Below, in pieces: positions 9,793 through 28,557 of a DNA stretch of 64,000 bases. The stretch is taken from contig VBWB01000013.1 in assembly GCA_006218045.1 (NCBI GenBank), forward strand, positions 1 through 64,000, read 5' to 3'. Positions within the stretch are counted from its first letter, which is position 1. The number at the start of each line of letters is the position of its first letter. Made by a program: the position numbers and the translations under genes. The notes under the pieces were generated by a model. That model was not told where the DNA came from and did no database searches. It was given only the letters and a program-made list of their open reading frames with translations. This DNA is from Stygiobacter sp. GTDB lineage: Bacteria; Pseudomonadota; Alphaproteobacteria; Rhodospirillales; Magnetospirillaceae.

Positions 9793-10445
9793 GCCATCAT
9801 CCGCCACCAGCGGCGGGCTTCGTCGGCGCCCCAATCGGGACCATGGCCGGAATACAGGCGCGGGGTCTCGCCCACCTTGCCGAGCAGGCGGGTGATGGAT
9901 TCCCACAGCTTGGCCTCGGAGCCGCCGGGCAGGTCGGTGCGCCCGACGCCGTGGCGGAACAAGGTGTCGCCGGTGACGACGAAGTCGCCGAAATCGAAGC
10001 ATACCCCACCCGGGGTGTGGCCGGGGGTGAAGATCACCTTGACCGTCGCCCCGCCCAGGCTGAAATCCGGCTCGCCCGTGAACCAGTGCAGGTCGGCCGG
10101 GCCGTCCTGATCCTGGCCGGTGAAGGCCTTGTTGAGGTCGCTGGCCCGCTCGATCACCGGCTTTTCCTCGGCGTGGGCGATGGTCGGGATGTTCAGACCC
10201 TGCTCGATGGCGTGGGCGGCGCCCAGATGATCGGGGTGACCGTGGGTCAGCCAGATGGCCACCGGCGTGCCGCCCATCTGGCGCACCGCCTTGATGATTT
10301 GCGGGGCGTCGCCGCCGGGATCGATGATGGCGATTTCCCCGCTGGGACGGTGCTGGACGATATAGCAGTTCTGGTGCCATGGCGGCGGCGACACCGCGAT
10401 GGTCAAGGAAAAGTCGCCGAAATCACCGCCCGCATGAATCGTCAT
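9789..10445 (-). CDS. MBL-fold metallo-hydrolase (glyoxalase II-like)
   Basis: A 218-residue metallo-beta-lactamase-fold enzyme. The first metal motif is THGHPDHLG (about residues 67-75, T-H-x-H-x-D-H). Downstream His and Asp ligands are seen in TPGHTPG (about 139-145), VTGDTLF (about 157-163) and YSGHGPD near the C-terminus. The set matches the short glyoxalase II/YcbL-type hydrolases that use two Zn or Fe ions to hydrolyse thioesters. It lacks the C-terminal HAGH-C substrate domain of true hydroxyacylglutathione hydrolases, so the substrate is open. Confidence 0.87.
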   Translation of the reverse strand: MTIHAGGDFGDFSLTIAVSPPPWHQNCYIVQHRPSGEIAIIDPGGDAPQIIKAVRQMGGTPVAIWLTHGHPDHLGAAHAIEQGLNIPTIAHAEEKPVIERASDLNKAFTGQDQDGPADLHWFTGEPDFSLGGATVKVIFTPGHTPGGVCFDFGDFVVTGDTLFRHGVGRTDLPGGSEAKLWESITRLLGKVGETPRLYSGHGPDWGADEARRWWRMMA

Positions 10446-10463
10446 TGTCGCCCGCCCGCCGGA

Positions 10464-10491
10464 TTGAAAGCGAAAGATGATTTTCTATACG
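10464..10491 (+). promoter_or_regulatory. Candidate sigma-70 promoter for the LOG gene
   Basis: TTGAAA (10464-10469), a 16-bp spacer and TATACG (10486-10491). It lies 100 bp upstream of the start codon, implying a leader of roughly 90 nt that contains TTACC-GGGC-GGTAA at 10524-10537. Confidence 0.45.
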
Positions 10492-10590
10492 GGATAAATG
10501 CGACGATTTCCAGGTGCGGCTCTTTACCGGGCGGTAATGAAGCCCCATGACAATGAGACGAGGTTTTTGTTTGCCTGAATCGAGACCACC

Positions 10591-22200: not shown

Positions 22201-22511
22201 GCGATGCGGCGATCGAGGCGGCGCGGCTACGGCTGCGGCCCATCCTGATGACCTCGTTGGCCTTCATCATGGGCGTGGTGCCGTTGGTGCTGTCCACCGG
22301 GGCCGGGGCCGAGATGCGCCATGCCATGGGGGTGGCGGTGTTCGCCGGCATGCTGGGGGTGACCGCCTTCGGCATCTTCCTCACCCCGGTGTTTTACGTG
22401 CTGATCCGGGCCATGGCCGGCAACCGCCCCCTGCATCACCACCAGAGCACCCATGCCATCGAGGTGCCGGACGAGGTGGAGGCGCCCCTGCAGCCGCAGG
22501 CTGCTGAATGA
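19299..22511 (+). CDS. RND-family multidrug efflux permease (AcrB/MexF-like)
   Basis: A 1070-residue proton-driven trimeric pump of the HAE1 family. It starts MNLSKFFIDRPVFAGVLSIL (canonical F-I-x-R-P-x-F). Proton-relay Asp residues are present in the fourth helix (GIVVDDAIVVVENVERN, about residues 405-421) and the Lys in the tenth (GLSAKNAILIVEFA). Two large periplasmic loops (about 40-335 and 560-870) carry the drug-binding porter domains. The gene has no outer-membrane factor beside it, so a shared TolC-like channel must be used. Its last codons form the first copy of a three-copy 26-bp repeat. Confidence 0.95.
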   Translation: MNLSKFFIDRPVFAGVLSILIFVSGLLALRGLPVSEYPEVVPPTVVVRAQYPGASPKVIAETVATPIEEQVNGVEGMLYMGSQATTDGVMTLTITFRLGTDPDKAQQLVQNRVAQAEPRLPEEVRRLGVTTIKSSPDLTMVVHLLSPDGRYDMAYLRNYAGLNVKDRLARIEGVGQVQLFGSGDYSMRVWLDPHKVAERGLSAGQVVQAIREQNIQAAAGVVGASPGLPGVDLQLSVNAQGRLQSEQEFGDIIVKTDQGGAVTRLRDLGRIEMGAASYALRSLLDNKSAVAIPIFQAPGSNAIAISDNVRATMAEMKSYMPEGVDYSIVYDPTQFVRASIKSVIHTLLEAVLLVVLVVILFLQTWRASIIPLLAVPVSVVGTFAVMHLLGVSVNALSLFGLVLAIGIVVDDAIVVVENVERNIEAGLAPKDATYRAMREVSGPIIAIALVLVAVFVPLAFISGLSGQFYKQFALTIAISTVISAVNSLTLSPALAALLLKGHDAPKDRLTRAMDAALGWLFRGFNRAFGRGTRAYGVGLGRVVSRKVLMMGLYLGLVGVTYGLFQAVPGGFVPMQDKQYLIGFAQLPDGATLDRTEQVIRDMSQIAMDDPGIEHAISFPGLSINGFTNSTNSGIVFAALKPFEQRTEAGMSAGAIAGRLNGKYAGLQDAFVVMFPPPPVQGLGTTGGFKLQVEDRASQGYEALDGAVKAFLAKARPAPELANLFTSYQVNVPQLYADVDRTKARQLGVAVTDIFDTLQIYLGSLYVNDFNQFGRTYSVRVQADAPYRAHADDIGKLKVRASSGEMVPLAALLTVKPAAGPERAMRYNGFLSADISGAAAPGFSSGQAQAVVERIAAETLPKGFTFEWTDLTYQQIIAGNSALIIFPLAILLVFLVLAAQYESLTLPIAIILIVPMSLLAAMTGIWLTGGDNNIFTQIGLIVLVGLSAKNAILIVEFARELELAGRSPRDAAIEAARLRLRPILMTSLAFIMGVVPLVLSTGAGAEMRHAMGVAVFAGMLGVTAFGIFLTPVFYVLIRAMAGNRPLHHHQSTHAIEVPDEVEAPLQPQAAE

Positions 22512-22570
22512 AGGACCAGCCGCAGGCTGCTGAATAAAGGCTTGGCCGCAGGCTGCTGAATAATAGTAGA
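22493..22570 (+). repeat. Three tandem 26-bp repeats at the RND gene end
   Basis: The 17-bp core GCCGCAGGCTGCTGAAT occurs at 22493-22509, 22519-22535 and 22545-22561, a strict 26-bp period. Copy 1 encodes the final PQAAE-stop of the permease; copies 2 and 3 are in the 3' untranslated region. Confidence 0.85.
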
Positions 22571-22601
22571 TCCCGATGAGGTCGACTCATCGGGATTTGC
22601 T
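22565..22601. terminator. Bidirectional hairpin between the RND pump and the P-type ATPase
   Basis: ATCCCGATGAG (22570-22580) pairs with CTCATCGGGAT (22586-22596), and flanking AGTAG/TTGCT can extend the stem with wobble pairs. The last codons and the stop codon of the minus-strand ATPase gene lie inside the hairpin, which is unusual. Confidence 0.65.
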
Positions 22602-24680
22602 ACTCGGCATCAGCCGGCGCAAGGCGTTGAGCAGGATGCCGATGGTGGTGCCGTTGTGCAAAAGCGCGGTGGCGATGGGCGACAGCAGGCCCAAGGCCGC
22701 CAGGCCGAGGATGCCGGTGTTCAGGCCCACGGTCAGGCGATAATTGCCGGCGATGCGGGCCATGGCGGCGTTGGCCAGTTCCTTGGCGTCGGCGACGCGT
22801 CCGATGTCGTCTTCCAACAGGGCGATGTCGGCGGTCAGTCGGGCGATGTCGGCGCCCTTTTGCATGGCGATGCCCACATGGGCGCCGGCCAGGGCCGGGG
22901 CGTCGTTGATGCCGTCGCCGACAAAGGCGATGCGGGCGCCGTCCTGGTTGAGGCGGGCGATGATCTCGGCCTTGTCCTCGGGCATCAGTTCGGCGTGGAA
23001 GTCGTCCAGCCCCAATTCGGCGGCCAGATCGGCGGCACGGTCGCGGTGATCGCCGGTCAAAAGCAGGATGCGCTTGGCCCCGGCCCGGCGCAGGCGGGCG
23101 ATGGTTTCGGCGCTGGTGGCGCGGATGGAATCCTTCAAGGCCAGGATACCCAGCAGCGTGCCGCCATAACCGATGAACAGCAGGGTCTTGCCCTGGTGGT
23201 ACAGGCGGTCGATCACCGGCTGATGCAAGGTGATGTCGATACCTTCGTCCTCCTGGATGAAATGGCGCGAGCCCACCACCACGCGCTTACCGTCGATGAC
23301 GCTGGCGACGCCATGGGCGACGATGAACTGCACCTCGGCATGGTCGAAATGGTGATTGTGGGTGGCCTTGGCGGCGTTGACCACGGCCAGGGCCAGGGGG
23401 TGGAAATAATGCTCCTCGACCGAGGCGGCCAGACAGATCAGGTCTTCGGCGCTGAAGGCGGCATCGAAGGCGATGGAATCGGTGATCTCCAGCATGCCGG
23501 TGGTCAGGGTGCCGGTCTTGTCGAAGATGAAGGTGTCGGCGCTGGCCAGACGTTCCAGCGCGGTGGCGCCCTTGACCAGGATGCCGGCGCGACCGGCGTC
23601 GAACATGGCCGATTTGAAGGCCACCGGCGTGGCCAGCTTGAGGGCGCAGGAATAATCGGCTTGCAACACCGAGGCGGCGTTGCGCCAGTTGCCGGTGATC
23701 AGGGCCGAGGCGCCGGCCAGCTTGAGCACGCCGGGCACCAACTGGTCGGCCAGTTTGGCCGCCTCGATCTGGGCTTCGCTCTTGGCGGTCAGCGATTGCT
23801 CCACATAATCGGCGATGCGGGCGGCGGCGGTGCGGCTGCCCACCTGCTCGGCATAGATGCCGAGGCGGCCTTCCTCCATCAGCGTGCCCGACAGCACCGA
23901 ATCGCCGCGGCCCTTGACCACGGCGACGCTTTCACCGGTCATGGCCGCCTCGTTGACGGTGGCCTCGCCGGTCAGCACGGTGCCGTCGACGGGAATGACC
24001 GAGCCCGATCCCACCACCACGGTGTCCCCCACCGCCACCTCGGTCGCCGGGATCCGCACCTCGACCCCGTCCTTCAGCACCCAGACCTGATCGCTGGTCG
24101 GGCGCAGCAGGTGTTTCAGCAAATCGTCGGAGCGGCGGGCGATGGAGTTTTCCATGTATTCGCCCAAAGCCAGCATGAAGGTGGTGGTGTTGGCGGCGGT
24201 GAAGTCGGACCGGGCCAGCGAGATGGACACCGCCATGGCCTCAAGCACATGGCTGGTGATGCCGTTCTCGCCATAATCGGCGGCGGCGTGATGCAACAGC
24301 GGCAAGGCCGAATGCAGGCTGACCGGCAGGCGCAACCCCATGGGCAGGGCATTGGTGCCCAGCAGCACGGCCAAGGCGACGGCCACCGCCGCCTTGCCGT
24401 CATCGGCCCTGGCCGCCTTGGCGACGATGTCATCCAGGCCGAGCCCGGCCACGGCGGCGGCCACACGGTCGCTATCGGTCAGGGCCGGGTCGAAGTGGAT
24501 CACCAGCGAGCGGGCGCGGCCGTTGACGCGGGCGCTCTCGACCCCGTCCAGCAGACAGACCGCCGCCTCCAGCGCCGCGCCTTGAACGGGGGCCTCGGGG
24601 TGGCGATGGTAGCGTAGGCGGATGCGACCGGGCAGGCGGTGGACCACCGCCACCGAGCGCAGCCACGGGGCGCCGCTCAT
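22587..24680 (-). CDS. P1B-like metal P-type ATPase with non-canonical YSC motif
   Basis: A 697-residue P-type ATPase. An HMA_2-like domain without CxxC occupies about residues 10-75 (HRLPGRIRLRY at 14-24). Catalytic motifs are intact: TGES 248-251, DKTGTLT 387-393 (phosphorylated Asp 387), the P1B-specific His-Pro at 427-428, TGDHRDRA near 542 and GDGINDAP 588-595. The metal-site helix reads ADYSCALKLATPVA (341-354), so the usual Cys-Pro-Cys is Tyr-Ser-Cys. Only one C-terminal helix pair and a reduced N-terminal membrane region are visible. It is the last gene of a six-gene overlapping operon (ATGA overlap with the previous gene). The transported ion is unknown. Confidence 0.88.
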   Translation of the reverse strand: MSGAPWLRSVAVVHRLPGRIRLRYHRHPEAPVQGAALEAAVCLLDGVESARVNGRARSLVIHFDPALTDSDRVAAAVAGLGLDDIVAKAARADDGKAAVAVALAVLLGTNALPMGLRLPVSLHSALPLLHHAAADYGENGITSHVLEAMAVSISLARSDFTAANTTTFMLALGEYMENSIARRSDDLLKHLLRPTSDQVWVLKDGVEVRIPATEVAVGDTVVVGSGSVIPVDGTVLTGEATVNEAAMTGESVAVVKGRGDSVLSGTLMEEGRLGIYAEQVGSRTAAARIADYVEQSLTAKSEAQIEAAKLADQLVPGVLKLAGASALITGNWRNAASVLQADYSCALKLATPVAFKSAMFDAGRAGILVKGATALERLASADTFIFDKTGTLTTGMLEITDSIAFDAAFSAEDLICLAASVEEHYFHPLALAVVNAAKATHNHHFDHAEVQFIVAHGVASVIDGKRVVVGSRHFIQEDEGIDITLHQPVIDRLYHQGKTLLFIGYGGTLLGILALKDSIRATSAETIARLRRAGAKRILLLTGDHRDRAADLAAELGLDDFHAELMPEDKAEIIARLNQDGARIAFVGDGINDAPALAGAHVGIAMQKGADIARLTADIALLEDDIGRVADAKELANAAMARIAGNYRLTVGLNTGILGLAALGLLSPIATALLHNGTTIGILLNALRRLMPSSKSR

Positions 24681-25012
24681 AGGGCGCCGGTCTGCTCGGC
24701 CTGGACTTCCGCTTGCAGGTCGGCCAGTTGTTCCTTCATCTCGGCGACGCCGCCCATCATGCCGGCATAGGCCTTGAGGGCGCCCTTGAACAGCTTGCCG
24801 CGCAACTCCTCATCCGACAGCACATAGGCGGCGCCGCCGCCCATCAGCAGGCCCAACAGGAATTGTTCGCCGCGGCCCTGGGGCAGCAGGCGGCCCAGAC
24901 CGGCCAGCATTCCCTGATTCTGCCCCTGGCCCATGTGCAGGGCCATCATCTGTTCAAGGTCGCGGCGCTTCAGGCCCTTCTTCGCCTGCTTCTGCTTGTT
25001 CTTCTTAGCCAA
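24677..25012 (-). CDS. Small Gly-rich membrane-associated protein of the ATPase operon (111 aa)
   Basis: The start is TTG at 25012 with GGAGG about 8 bp upstream. The 111-residue product has a very basic N-terminus (AKKNKQKQAKKGLKRRD), a Gln/Gly/Met-rich segment, a short hydrophobic Gly-rich stretch (FLLGLLMGGGAAYVLS, about residues 51-66) and an amphipathic acidic C-terminal helix (MKEQLADLQAEVQAEQ). The layout recalls YtxH-like proteins, but no named family is certain. It overlaps its upstream neighbour by 8 bp and the ATPase by 4 bp, so its product probably works with the ATPase. Confidence 0.72.
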   Translation of the reverse strand: MAKKNKQKQAKKGLKRRDLEQMMALHMGQGQNQGMLAGLGRLLPQGRGEQFLLGLLMGGGAAYVLSDEELRGKLFKGALKAYAGMMGGVAEMKEQLADLQAEVQAEQTGAL

Positions 25013-25337
25013 TTTCGGCCTCCTCGGCGGGGGTGTGGGTGGGGTTCAGGAGCATCTCGGCGACGCCGACGCCGACGGCGCCGCCGGCAACGGCGATCAG
25101 GGCGCGGGCATAATCGCCCCGGCGCAGGGATTCGGCGGCGGCGATGCCGGCGGCCAGGGCGGCACCGCCTTGCAGGGCCAGACGCAGCACCTTGCGGTTG
25201 GACGGCTTTTCATGGCTCCAGCGATCCTGGATAGCCGCCAGCAGGCCGGTGGCGATCAGGCCACGGGTGAAATTGCCGGCCAGTTCCACCGGCGCCAGGG
25301 CGGCGGCGGCTTTGGCCTTACCCTTGCCCTTCCTCAC
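25005..25337 (-). CDS. Small hydrophobic protein of the ATPase operon (110 aa)
   Basis: The start is GTG at 25337, overlapping the previous stop (GTGA). The 110-residue protein has a basic Lys-rich start, then two or three weakly hydrophobic Gly/Ala-rich helices (FTRGLIATGLLAAI, LALQGGAALAAGIAAAES, ALIAVAGGAVGVGVAEMLL). The Ala/Gly pattern suggests tightly packed membrane helices. I recognise no family. Tight coupling on both sides places it in the same complex or pathway as the ATPase. Confidence 0.7.
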   Translation of the reverse strand: MRKGKGKAKAAAALAPVELAGNFTRGLIATGLLAAIQDRWSHEKPSNRKVLRLALQGGAALAAGIAAAESLRRGDYARALIAVAGGAVGVGVAEMLLNPTHTPAEEAEIG

Positions 25338-25681
25338 GAATCGGACTCGGGCTTGGCATCGATCGGGGGGGACGCGGCGACGGCTTGCTTCTTCGCCGTC
25401 ACCTTGCGCCGCGGCGCCGCCTTGGTCACCGGAACGGCGGCGGGTTCGGGCGCCGCCGGCTCTTCCGGGGTCAGCTTGGTGCGCAAGCTGGCCGAGGATT
25501 TCTCAAGGGCCGACAAGCCGGAGACGGTGGCGTCGCGCAGGCCCGCCTGGGCCTTGTCCAGGCCGCTGCGGGCCTTGTCGCCCATCGTGCCGAGCGAGTC
25601 CGGGGCTTTGACGTTTTTCAGCAGTTTGACGCCGATGATCCCGGCGACGATGCCGGAGGCGAAGGTAAGAAAAGGCAACAT
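25334..25681 (-). CDS. One-helix membrane protein with Ala/Pro/Lys-rich tail (115 aa)
   Basis: The ATG at 25681 is preceded by AAGGAG at 6 bp, which decides it over an upstream in-frame ATG at 25717. The product begins with a membrane helix (MLPFLTFASGIVAGIIGVKLL, a Gly-zipper-like pattern), then a charged amphipathic region (DKARSGLDKAQAGLRDATVSGLSALEKS, about residues 34-62) and a disordered Pro/Ala/Lys tail. It recalls DUF5132/phasin-like layouts but a firm family cannot be given. It is the third gene of the ATPase operon, 19 bp after the HMA-like gene. Confidence 0.7.
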   Translation of the reverse strand: MLPFLTFASGIVAGIIGVKLLKNVKAPDSLGTMGDKARSGLDKAQAGLRDATVSGLSALEKSSASLRTKLTPEEPAAPEPAAVPVTKAAPRRKVTAKKQAVAASPPIDAKPESDS

Positions 25682-25700
25682 GGTCGACTCCTTTTCTGGC

Positions 25701-26030
25701 TCAGGCCTTGGCGGCATTCACCAAGGTTTGCAGAAGAATTTCGCTGCCCGGGGCGTCTTGCCCGGACAGCAGGCCATCCCAGGCGGAAGCGGGGATGACC
25801 TTGGGGTCGTATTCGATGGTGCAGGATTTCGCCAACGGGTTCAGGTTGATGGCGCCGATGCCCGGCATGGCCCCCAGGGACTGGCCGAAGCGTTTGGCGG
25901 TAGCGGCCTGGGCCATCAGGTCGGCCTCCAGCCCTCCGGTCAGCTTCAGGCGGATGCGACCGGGGATGTGATGGGCGACGGTGAGGGCGCGGGCGAAACG
26001 CAGCAGGGGGAAATCCAGATCCACGGACAC
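25701..26030 (-). CDS. HMA_2-like domain protein (109 aa)
   Basis: A GTG at 26030, 15 bp after the preceding stop and behind AAAGGGA, is the likely start; a second GTG at 26024 is possible. The product is essentially one ferredoxin-like HMA-type domain: VAHHIPGRIRLKLTGGLEAD (about residues 22-41) as first strand and loop, then MPGIGAINLNPLAKSCTIEYDPKVI (about 62-86) as strands 2-3. The M-x-C-x-x-C metal site of HMA domains is missing; the PGRIR loop replaces it, and one Cys remains (KSCTIEYD). The same PGRIR motif recurs in the operon's first gene and in the ATPase N-terminus. Confidence 0.68.
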   Translation of the reverse strand: MSVDLDFPLLRFARALTVAHHIPGRIRLKLTGGLEADLMAQAATAKRFGQSLGAMPGIGAINLNPLAKSCTIEYDPKVIPASAWDGLLSGQDAPGSEILLQTLVNAAKA

Positions 26031-26044
26031 GGGCGACGGTCCCT

Positions 26045-26512
26045 TTACTTGAAGGTGCGGCGCCAATGGACCGCCATATGGGTCAACATCATCAGCACGA
26101 ATAGGGCGCCGGCCTGGGCATGTAATTTCCGGCTGGTGCCCAGGGCGGCCAGGGACACCGCCATGCTGGCCACCGCGCCGATCTTGGCGGCCCGGTTGAT
26201 CTGCCATTTGGCCTTGTGCGGTTGCGGCAGGGCGATGCGCTTGCCCCTGTGCGGCGCCGACCGGGCGGCGGGCAGGGGGGACGGATCGATGGGCAGCACC
26301 GCCGCCACCTCGGCGCGGATGCGGGTTTCCATACCGGTGTCGGTGGGATCAAAGCGCAGCAGCAGCGAGCCGATGGCCGGGTTGCCCTCGACCTGGGCCA
26401 GCGGCAGCAGCCGCGCGATCAAGTCCCGATGGCGGCCCGCATCGCGTAACAGCGGGTGGCGCAGGCGAATCCGCCCCGGCAGGACCGAGACGAAGGCGGT
26501 CTTGTCGATCAT
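26045..26512 (-). CDS. HMA-like domain protein with two membrane helices (155 aa)
   Basis: First gene of the operon. The N-terminal domain opens FVSVLPGRIRLRHP (about residues 7-20) and continues with VEGNPAIGSLLLRFDP (about 41-56), again an HMA-type fold without CxxC. After a Pro/Arg-rich linker come two membrane helices (about 109-125 and 129-149). The C-terminus contains HMAVHWRR. The start at 26512 has AAGGA upstream. An FNR-type promoter lies about 75 bp upstream. The protein may be a membrane-bound partner or metal/lipid sensor for the ATPase; this is inference. Confidence 0.68.
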   Translation of the reverse strand: MIDKTAFVSVLPGRIRLRHPLLRDAGRHRDLIARLLPLAQVEGNPAIGSLLLRFDPTDTGMETRIRAEVAAVLPIDPSPLPAARSAPHRGKRIALPQPHKAKWQINRAAKIGAVASMAVSLAALGTSRKLHAQAGALFVLMMLTHMAVHWRRTFK

Positions 26513-26592
26513 CGGGTGTGTCGTCCTTGTCCTGGGTCCATATCCCATATCCTGGATTTGTGCGGTTGATAATGAATTGCACAATCCAGCTT

Positions 26593-26661: not shown

Positions 26662-28557
26662 CTAACCGATGCGGCCCAGCGACTGTCCGCCGCCGGGGGG
26701 GCCGGGCAATTGTTGAGCGCCGGCGGTCTGCTTCATCAGCTTTTCCATTTCCTCGATCATCTTGCCGGCCACCTCGACGATGGGGGCGAAGCCGCGCGGA
26801 TCGGCGATGCGTTCCAGCAAGGTCTTGTAATGGGCCTGGATGAGCAGGGCTTCTTCCTTGCGCTCGGGCGGCAGGCCTTGGGTCTGTCGCCGTGCCCGGG
26901 CAGGAATACGGCGCAGCAGGCCCATGCGCCGGTTGGAGAGCACCTTGTAGTTCATCACCTCGGCCAATTGGCTGGAATAATCGGCGGGGGACAGGGCCTC
27001 GAACAGATGCTCGATCAGTTCGATCTCGCTGTATTCCAGGATCAGGAAGACCCGCTGGGTCTTTTGCCAATCGGCGATGAACTGCCCGACATCGGCCAGT
27101 CTTTGCGCCAGTTCGGGGGCGAAGGTGGTGCAGTCCAGCATCTTCCAGGCCTTGCACGAGGCCATGGGCAATTTGCCGGGGAGGCCGAAATTACGGCTGA
27201 GCTGATGGGCGACCGCCAGTAAGGCGCGGCTGGAGCTGGACTGGGTGACCTTGCCCCAGCATTTGTACAGCAGATCAAGGGCGGCGAAATCGGAATCCGG
27301 CCCGTGATCGTCCAGCAGGGCGGCCAAGGCATCACGGTCGGCAGGCAGATCCGAATCTTCGCAGGATTTGAGCGGCAGCGGCGCGGCGGCGGGATGGTAC
27401 GCGGCAATGATCGCCTCGACCCGCACGGCCAACAAGGACGGTGGTGCTACGTCGATGATTGGCTCCGGCTCCGGCTCCGGTTCCGGCGGGGCGAGGAAGA
27501 CGGGCTCCGGCTCCGGCTGCGGTTCCGGCGGGGCGAGGAAGACGGGCTCCGGCTCCGGCTCCGGTTCCGGCGGGGCGAGGAAGACGGGCTCCGGCTCCGG
27601 CTCCGGTTCCGGTGGGGCGAGGAAGACGGGTTCTGGTTCCGGCTCCGGTTCCGGCGGGGCGAGGAAGACGGGTTCTGGTTCCGGCTGCGGTTCCGGCGGA
27701 GCGAGGAAGACGGGTTCTGGTTCCGGCTCCGGTTCCGGAATTGCGGGGGCTGCGGCAACAGGCGGCGGTTCGGGTGGCGCCGGCATGCGCTTGCGCTTGG
27801 GTTTCAGCTTGATTTTCAAGCCTTCCACTTCGCTCGGCGGCAGCGGCGGCGGTTCCATGGCGGCGGTGATAACCGGTGCGGGCTGGCTCTGTTCGACCGG
27901 TTGGGCCGGGGGCACCACCCGTTTGCGTCGCTTCGGCTGATGCACCTTGATGGTAGGCGGCGGTGCCGGTGCCGGTGGTTCGGCGGGGATGAAGGATTCC
28001 ATCACCTCGTCGGTCAGCGGGGCGGCGGGCAGGGGCGGGATATCCTGCGGCGGCGGTTCGGGCACCGATGGCGCGGGCTCGGCGGTCCAACCGCCGTCGG
28101 GAGAGTTGATCGGGGTGCCGATTTCTTCCAGCAAAAGGCGATCGTTTTCCGCCTGTGCCGACGGTGGCGGCAGGGTGTCCGGCGGACGGTGGCGCAGACT
28201 CACTTCCTTGCGGCGCCGACGTCGGCGGCGTTCGACCGCGTCCATCTCCTGAAATGGCGGGGGCAAGGGGGCGCTGTCGTTGGGGACGGCCCGTTCCAGC
28301 ATGGCGGTGACCACCCGCAATTGCGGCAGGATGTCTTCATGGCCGGTATCGTCGCCATGGCCATCCTGGCTGTGGCCGTGATCGTGCGCCATGGCGTCGC
28401 CGAGAGTGCGGACGATGCCCAGTAAGCCGGCGGAGGGTGGTGTTTGCAGGGCGTCCGTCGCCAGCACATGATCCAGCATTGCGACCAAGTGCTCGGCCGG
28501 AATACCGACGATATCGGCCGGGCTTGGTCGGCGGCGCGGGACGGAAGAGGTGCTCAT
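26662..28557 (-). CDS. Unknown 631-aa protein with acidic Pro-rich repeats and a His/Asp patch
   Basis: No known family is recognised. Residues about 57-74 form a His/Asp/Gly-rich patch ([18 protein letters not shown]) that could bind metal. Residues about 100-270 are Pro-rich and of low complexity, and residues about 270-370 hold six copies of a 14-residue unit around VFLAPPEP-(E/Q)-PEPEP. The C-terminal 250 residues look folded and mostly helical ([50 protein letters not shown]). There is no signal peptide or membrane helix, so a cytoplasmic, partly disordered protein is expected. It follows rsmA by 18 bp on the same strand and ends before the FNR promoter of the HMA operon. Confidence 0.8.
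27457..27740. repeat. Six-and-a-half tandem 42-bp coding repeats
   Basis: A 42-bp unit encoding 14 residues ([14 protein letters not shown] type) repeats within the 631-aa gene. Units differ by a few silent changes (GGCTCC/GGTTCC) and Glu/Gln swaps, suggesting recent expansion by slippage or recombination. Confidence 0.9.

Follow-up and report, generated by a model that had tools for sequence, protein, structure and literature searches.

FezB, the ATPase of the ferrosome (fez) operons, is said since the work of Grant in 2022 to be a P1B-6 ATPase, and a six-gene operon reportedly exists in S. putrefaciens as well. In Rhodopseudomonas palustris CGA009, ferrosomes are formed from six fez genes, RPA2333-2338 (PMC12016538). 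In studies on D. magneticus and D. indicum, FezC is a DUF4405-like cytochrome with heme b, possibly able to form homodimers, and FezB a putative transporter of ferrous iron (PMC11334425, preprint PMC10979944). The ferrosomes of C. difficile need FezA and FezB, both of which Fur represses (PMC12574912). Here we describe six genes, named A to F in the order of transcription, in a stretch of 64,000 nucleotides of the alphaproteobacterium Stygiobacter sp. (assembly GCA_006218045.1, 4.33 Mb; contig VBWB01000013.1, positions 1 to 64,000), referred to below as the window. We consider, with a probability of roughly 0.87, that they constitute a ferrosome operon, that is, an operon of a known kind, in a Magnetospirillum-type genome. 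This assignment rests on the gene set, the motifs and the genomic context rather than on sequence comparison with Fez proteins of proven function. The original prediction, made from the DNA letters without database searches, had stated that no functional description of such a set was known. As a sign of novelty this is not supported, since the ferrosome system is published (PMC12016538, PMC11334425, PMC10979944) and the match with it is very probable.

Gene set and its conservation

The six open reading frames (ORFs) are co-directional on the minus strand (Table 1) and follow one another along A-F, the first two junctions being gaps (14 and 19 bp) and the last three overlaps (4, 8 and 4 bp); the lengths, start codons, gaps and overlaps that had been predicted were all present. 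Conservation was followed in 80 named loci (cited by our own L numbers, as genomes are by G and contigs by C numbers), the best 80 of the 125 found with patterns derived from F; several species of a single genus are among them, so that the counts are not independent. With overlaps resolved, A was recognised in 60 of these loci, B in 67, C in 74, D in 74, E in 79 and F in all 80, and the alignments comprise the window plus 27 of the loci (26 for A). The complete A-B-C-D-E-F order was found in 57/80 loci. The remaining ones contain B-F (7), C-F (7), D-F (2) or E-F (2) or lack D alone (2), and three single loci have C-F with A after F, B, E and F only, and F only. The first of these is L113, where gene A is located after the ATPase gene (10100-10558) and not at the start of the cluster. 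Nine loci (L069, L076, L077, L099, L105, L111, L112, L120, L124) offer less than 1.5 kb of sequence upstream of F, a possible reason why genes are missing there.

Gene E lies within 300 bp before F in 78/80 loci, the exceptions being L109, where it stands 3.2 kb before F, and L120, where there is no E. Where a close ATPase was found in a genome of the same genus or family, which is the case in 11 (L038-L048), the full six-gene order is kept every time; L050, with a 39% match to F, is without the small genes, and L049, with a 43% match, ends at a contig edge. Because proteins and order are conserved in these relatives and in the 57 loci, the six ORFs are real genes. DNA of high GC content often contains small ORFs rich in Gly and Ala, which would favour the idea of separate genes that are neighbours by chance and merely resemble an operon; however, the order kept in 57 loci and the adjacency of E and F in 78 refute such a grouping, which we regard as extremely improbable. 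The neighbourhood survey of the small genes beside the ATPase, proposed beforehand, found them conserved together, and the set passed it. In this sense, the idea that HMA-like modules and a non-standard ATPase form one set stood up, in order, in the 57 loci, and the part that called this set functionally undescribed fell. The sensing of lipid or metal first suggested for PGRIR may or may not apply.

When E was used as query, 7 of 398 sampled genomes of the phylum gave a match, the own genome included, and in 6/6 of the others an ATPase with the HN motif lies directly downstream of E, with HMA_2 proteins nearby; thus the set is rare in the phylum and tightly linked where present. Among 16 Rhodopseudomonas genomes, E was detected in five; L058 and L176-L178 reproduce the A-F order exactly, and L175 has a divergent version. 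The locus of Stygiobacter sp. would resemble the fez operon of R. palustris CGA009 in having six genes and a P1B-6-type ATPase, and its A-F order recurs in those 4/16 Rhodopseudomonas genomes. In the divergent cluster L175 the recognised genes are HMA, D-like, E-like, F and HMA, the HMA_2 genes being at both ends and feoB adjoining. The comparison with FezA-FezB of C. difficile, made by description, sets a membrane protein and a transporter there beside putative counterparts here; two proteins are named there, whereas six genes are present here.

Table 1. Genes of the putative ferrosome operon and candidate sites upstream of it, in window coordinates
Feature	Coordinates	Strand	Start, product	Remarks
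Gene A	26045..26512	(-)	ATG, 155 aa	N-terminal HMA_2 (ferredoxin-like) domain with PGRIRLR plus two-helix hairpin; FezC-like candidate half-cytochrome
Gene B	25701..26030	(-)	GTG, 109 aa	HMA_2 protein with PGRIR, without transmembrane-like stretch
Gene C	25334..25681	(-)	ATG, 115 aa	N-terminal transmembrane-like stretch, Lys/Ala/Pro-rich tail
Gene D	25005..25337	(-)	GTG, 110 aa	Small, two transmembrane-like stretches
Gene E	24677..25012	(-)	TTG, 111 aa	G54xxxG58 segment, acidic helix face; precedes the ATPase gene
Gene F	22587..24680	(-)	ATG, 697 aa	P1B-6-kind metal ATPase (FezB-like), N-terminal HMA_2-like domain
Candidate FNR-type box TTGATGAGCGTCAA	26621..26634	(-)		122 bp upstream of A; one mismatch
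Candidate Fur-type box TGCAATTCATTATCA	26567..26581	(-)		69 bp upstream of A; three mismatches

The ATPase and its link to iron genes

Gene F encodes an ATPase of the heavy-metal P1B type (TIGR01525, E=6e-142 in a profile search), whose best named match is that of Magnetospirillum sulfuroxidans J10 (86%). A genome of the same genus, G007, matches it at 92% over residues 1-607; there the ATPase gene (L039) is broken into one frame for residues 1-607 and another for 605-695, by frameshift or sequencing error. F carries DYSCALK in transmembrane segment (TM) 4, LLHNGTT in TM6 and the phosphorylation site DKTGT, so that SCA stands where CPC-type ATPases carry CPC, and HN is found in TM6. The HN motif is a feature of P1B6 ATPases, alongside which DUF6110 proteins are encoded (PMC9374683). 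Four P1B ATPases of the own genome have CPC (L001, L002, L004, L005), and L003 and L007, with neither CPC nor the F-type motif, resemble other P-type classes. Across the 80 loci, LHN occurs in 77 and the TM4 pattern D[YF][SA]C..K in 71, the other nine being unmatched by the pattern and not looked at individually. All 28 aligned F sequences share D342, C345, A346, L347 and K348 in TM4 as well as H675 and N676 in TM6 (residue numbers are those of alignment and model plus 1, the window F having been aligned without its first codon). Of the more distant E-linked ATPases, the four of L144-L147 have DFSCGIK or DFACGIK, and those of L148 and L149 have DYSCALK. The structural model of F is P1B-like, with a predicted local distance difference test (pLDDT) score of 80.8, and its best relatives in the PDB are copper and zinc/cadmium P1B ATPases. 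When plasmids were searched for F, 12 records matched, of which Azospirillum contributed 8, with annotation absent or generic.

The neighbours of the operon in other genomes point to iron. In 12/80 loci feoB, the gene of the ferrous-iron importer, lies within about 2 kb on the operon strand (L051, L052, L053, L054, L055, L078, L089, L094, L096, L126, L127, L130), a weak FeoB fragment match in L108 being left out, and the same cut applied to control families in the 80 loci gave 0 for KsgA, PdxA, SurA and SDR, 1 for AcrB, 1 for HlyD and 3 for a CopA paralogue. In M. sulfuroxidans J10 (L051), Magnetospirillum sp. 64-120 (L052), M. aberrantis SpK (L053) and Magnetospirillum sp. W65 (L127), feoB precedes the operon by some 300 bp in the same orientation, and FeoB also flanks the divergent clusters L144 and L175. 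Moreover, a ferritin/rubrerythrin-like gene is found inside the cluster in 15/80 loci, between B and C in 14 (L060, L062, L067, L072, L073, L074, L079, L082, L084, L088, L096, L097, L104, L129) and between B and E in L126. The protein of L129 passes the Pfam Rubrerythrin cut-off (1.4e-5), and its counterpart in L060 has no Pfam match at E<=0.01. Since nine aligned members have a common glycine-rich hydrophobic C-terminal segment, the ferritin-like protein may be a membrane-anchored member of the same compartment. In L084 the ferritin-like gene is split between two frames. In the literature, none of the matches listed for ferrosomes together with rubrerythrin, FeoB or ferritin-like proteins contained the word ferrosome.

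A small transmembrane protein beside a P1B ATPase with HN in TM6 is also known from M. tuberculosis, where PacL1 and CtpC share an operon (PMC9374683). By this likeness, the six genes might encode a platform for efflux of zinc or cadmium, in which a toxic metal would be exported at the plasma membrane and small transmembrane proteins would stabilise the pump, with no organelle involved. The company that DUF6110 proteins keep with P1B6 ATPases goes in the same direction, as do the PacL-like layout of C, with a transmembrane GxxxG and a low-complexity tail, and the score of F above the cut-off of TIGR01512, the cadmium family. Nevertheless, F has SCA where CtpC has CPC in TM4, neither DUF1490 nor DUF6110 was matched in 28 C sequences (E<=0.1) or in 28 E sequences (E<=0.01), and the recurrent neighbours include FeoB and the ferritin-like gene, whereas the metal of PacL1-CtpC is zinc. 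Such a platform is thus improbable here, and membership of the PacL/CtpC kind was rejected on account of DYSCALK in place of CPC and of the unmatched DUF1490 and DUF6110. We also give little credit to a plasma-membrane complex of the same pump and partners that would export Fe2+ for iron detoxification, without any vesicle. Linkage to iron genes fits efflux as well as storage, and the sequence itself gives no sign of a vesicle; however, iron-containing particles (PMC12016538) and membrane-encased iron granules (PMC9160268) are reported for fez genes or fez-bearing species elsewhere, in favour of a ferrosome.

Gene A, the HMA_2 modules and the small proteins

Gene A gave profile matches to HMA_2 (E=1.4e-4) and DUF4405 (E=0.0013), both under the Pfam cut-off; at E<=0.01, HMA_2 was recovered in 26/27 aligned A sequences and DUF4405 in 6/27. 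In its model (pLDDT 85.9) the strand/helix order of an HMA domain is followed by the long helices 98-123 and 128-148. H131 and H145, present in 61/61 sequences, are located on the second helix of this hairpin, nearly on the same face and towards both ends, because they are 14 residues apart. In cytochrome b, a similarly spaced His pair on one helix serves two hemes. By analogy, the spacing in the model fits a half-cytochrome that would need dimerisation. Together with the combination of HMA_2 and a DUF4405-like hairpin, the invariant His pair is in line with FezC, a likeness that was drawn by description and with a weak DUF4405 match. Foldseek with the A model found no PDB match at E<=0.001. 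The VIA structural comparison superposed residues 11-75 on HMA domains with Z of about 7 (2qif: Z 7.5, root-mean-square deviation 2.3, 63 aligned), middling by the tool's own grading; for the hairpin it returned unspecific pairs of helices, with Z reaching 8.9.

B is the clearest HMA_2 protein of the operon (PF19991, E=2.7e-7, 31.1 bits for a cut-off of 30, and 28.9 bits, below the cut-off, in the genome scan), and HMA_2 was detected at E<=0.01 in 28/28 aligned B sequences; the matches in window A and F are weaker and under the cut-off. The scan of the own genome yielded four HMA_2 matches, three in the operon and one in a CPC-type ATPase. B shows no transmembrane-like stretch by hydropathy, and ten of its residues (H20, G24, R25, R27, G57, N64, A67, S69, Y74, D75) occur in 68/68 sequences. 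PGRIR was found, as had been predicted, in A (12-16), B (23-27) and the N-terminus of F (17-21), and it is conserved across loci though not letter for letter: PGR[ILM]R in A of 56/60 loci, three of the four exceptions giving no match near a trimmed start; GRxR in B of 67/67 loci; and both Arg invariant in 28/28 F sequences, with Pro and Gly variable. This motif had been placed in the first strand-loop of an HMA-like fold; in the A model it forms a PG break within the first strand rather than a strand-1/helix-1 loop. R14, R16 and R18 of A alternate along this strand and should therefore face one side. The predicted lack of CxxC in the HMA-like modules was borne out, with no Cys in A, one in B and three in F and no CxxC in any of these three proteins, the first 260 residues of the F open frame included. 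Literature matches to the text PGRIR were unrelated by title.

Regarding the small proteins, C has one transmembrane-like stretch by hydropathy, with G10xxxG14 in 75/75 sequences, and then a Lys/Ala/Pro-rich low-complexity tail; Pfam returned nothing consistent for it, the best being a ZapG-like match in 3/28. D has transmembrane-like stretches at 50-68 and 79-97, a conserved FxRG and G58 in 75/75 sequences, again with nothing consistent in Pfam. The window's own C and D had no family match at all. E contains the G54xxxG58 segment, with no transmembrane-like stretch over the hydropathy cut, and is weakly similar to DUF5132 (13/28 at E<=0.01) and YtxH (12/28). Of the three products expected to be membrane-associated, C and D thus have transmembrane-like stretches by hydropathy, and E has none above the cut. 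E adjoins the ATPase as a FezA-type small membrane protein would, FezA being taken by description and E being without a stretch above the cut. Its acids E91, E94 and D98 were found in 80/80 sequences and E102 in 79/80, and the four cluster on a single face of the helix, spread over no more than about 80 degrees.

This acidic face suggests a tentative role for the HMA_2 modules. The GRxR strand of F, A and the adaptor B might serve, not as a metal site, but as a shared docking port bound by E91/E94/D98/E102 of E. If so, which is doubtful, electrostatic pairing would bring the pump F and the cytochrome A together in a single patch of membrane from which the iron compartment arises, and in some lineages, no less speculatively, the ferritin-like protein with its glycine-rich hydrophobic C-terminus would join the same patch. 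The Glu/Ala repeats of PacL1 are needed for contact with the N-terminal region of CtpC (PMC9374683), and we offer this contact as a parallel by analogy rather than as evidence that E and GRxR touch.

In a ferrosome, F, as a FezB-like protein, would most likely pump cytoplasmic Fe2+ into a membrane vesicle, in whose lumen the iron would be deposited. A homodimer of A, as a FezC-like protein, would bind heme b between membrane helices and adjust Fe2+/Fe3+ so that iron can be loaded and released. As scaffolds in the membrane, C, D and E would hold the pumps together and give the compartment its form. The HMA_2 modules, which in A, B and F alike are without CxxC, would have a docking or regulatory part, played by their basic GRxR strand.

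Several points speak against a ferrosome operon. E has no match in 11/16 Rhodopseudomonas genomes, and CGA009 could carry a divergent cluster of the L175 type. The operon is patchy, a close F being found in 7/12 other genomes of the same genus. As mentioned, the DUF4405 match of A is below the cut-off and present in only six of the aligned sequences. FeoB adjoins only the 12 operons listed above, and on C9, the contig of the window, neither FeoB nor a ferritin gene was detected, the best FeoB match of the own genome being on C51 and the ferritins on C16, C60 and, weakly, C51. Furthermore, the metal specificity of a P1B ATPase is not readable from its sequence, and CtpC likewise has HN in TM6, yet it is a zinc exporter (PMC9374683).

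Genomic setting, regulation and meaning of the operon

Within the window the operon is isolated, unlike that of some relatives with adjoining feoB. On its 5' side there is an unassigned 631-aa ORF and then matches to the KsgA, PdxA and SurA families; on the 3' side, a convergent AcrB-type pump with its HlyD partner. The 631-aa ORF (26662-28557) contains several tandem repeats of a 12-letter type and has no Pfam match at E<=1e-5, and at about 22500-22575, where the ATPase gene and the AcrB-type gene run towards each other, three near-copies of TTCAGCAGCCTGCGGC, seen by eye, lie between the ends of the two.

The FNR-type and Fur-type boxes upstream of A (Table 1) are suggestive only, as candidate sites read against consensus patterns. 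The upstream regions counted were those of the window and of 58 of the 60 loci with A; L077 was omitted because of a contig edge and L113 because A follows F there. FNR-type matches with <=1 mismatch occur in 6/59 of them against 0.4 expected from shuffles, the six being three groups of relatives, and Fur-type matches with <=3 mismatches in 6/59 against 0.2 expected, at scattered positions. A good match to either is missing from most loci, and sites are common to related loci.

Magnetochrome (MCR) motifs were detected in two operon-bearing relatives, G007 of the same genus and G034 of the same family, but neither in the own genome nor in three further operon-bearing relatives that were searched. 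As the search was negative in its own genome and positive in these two, Stygiobacter sp. is probably not magnetotactic. The presence of the operon in relatives both with and without this magnetosome marker would let two iron organelles be compared among close relatives. In addition, the conserved residues of the GRxR strand in the HMA_2 modules, the acidic face of E, the His pair of A and SCA/HN of F are targets for point mutants in the question of how ferrosomes assemble. In this sense, an operon that seemed undescribed from its letters is very probably that of an iron organelle.

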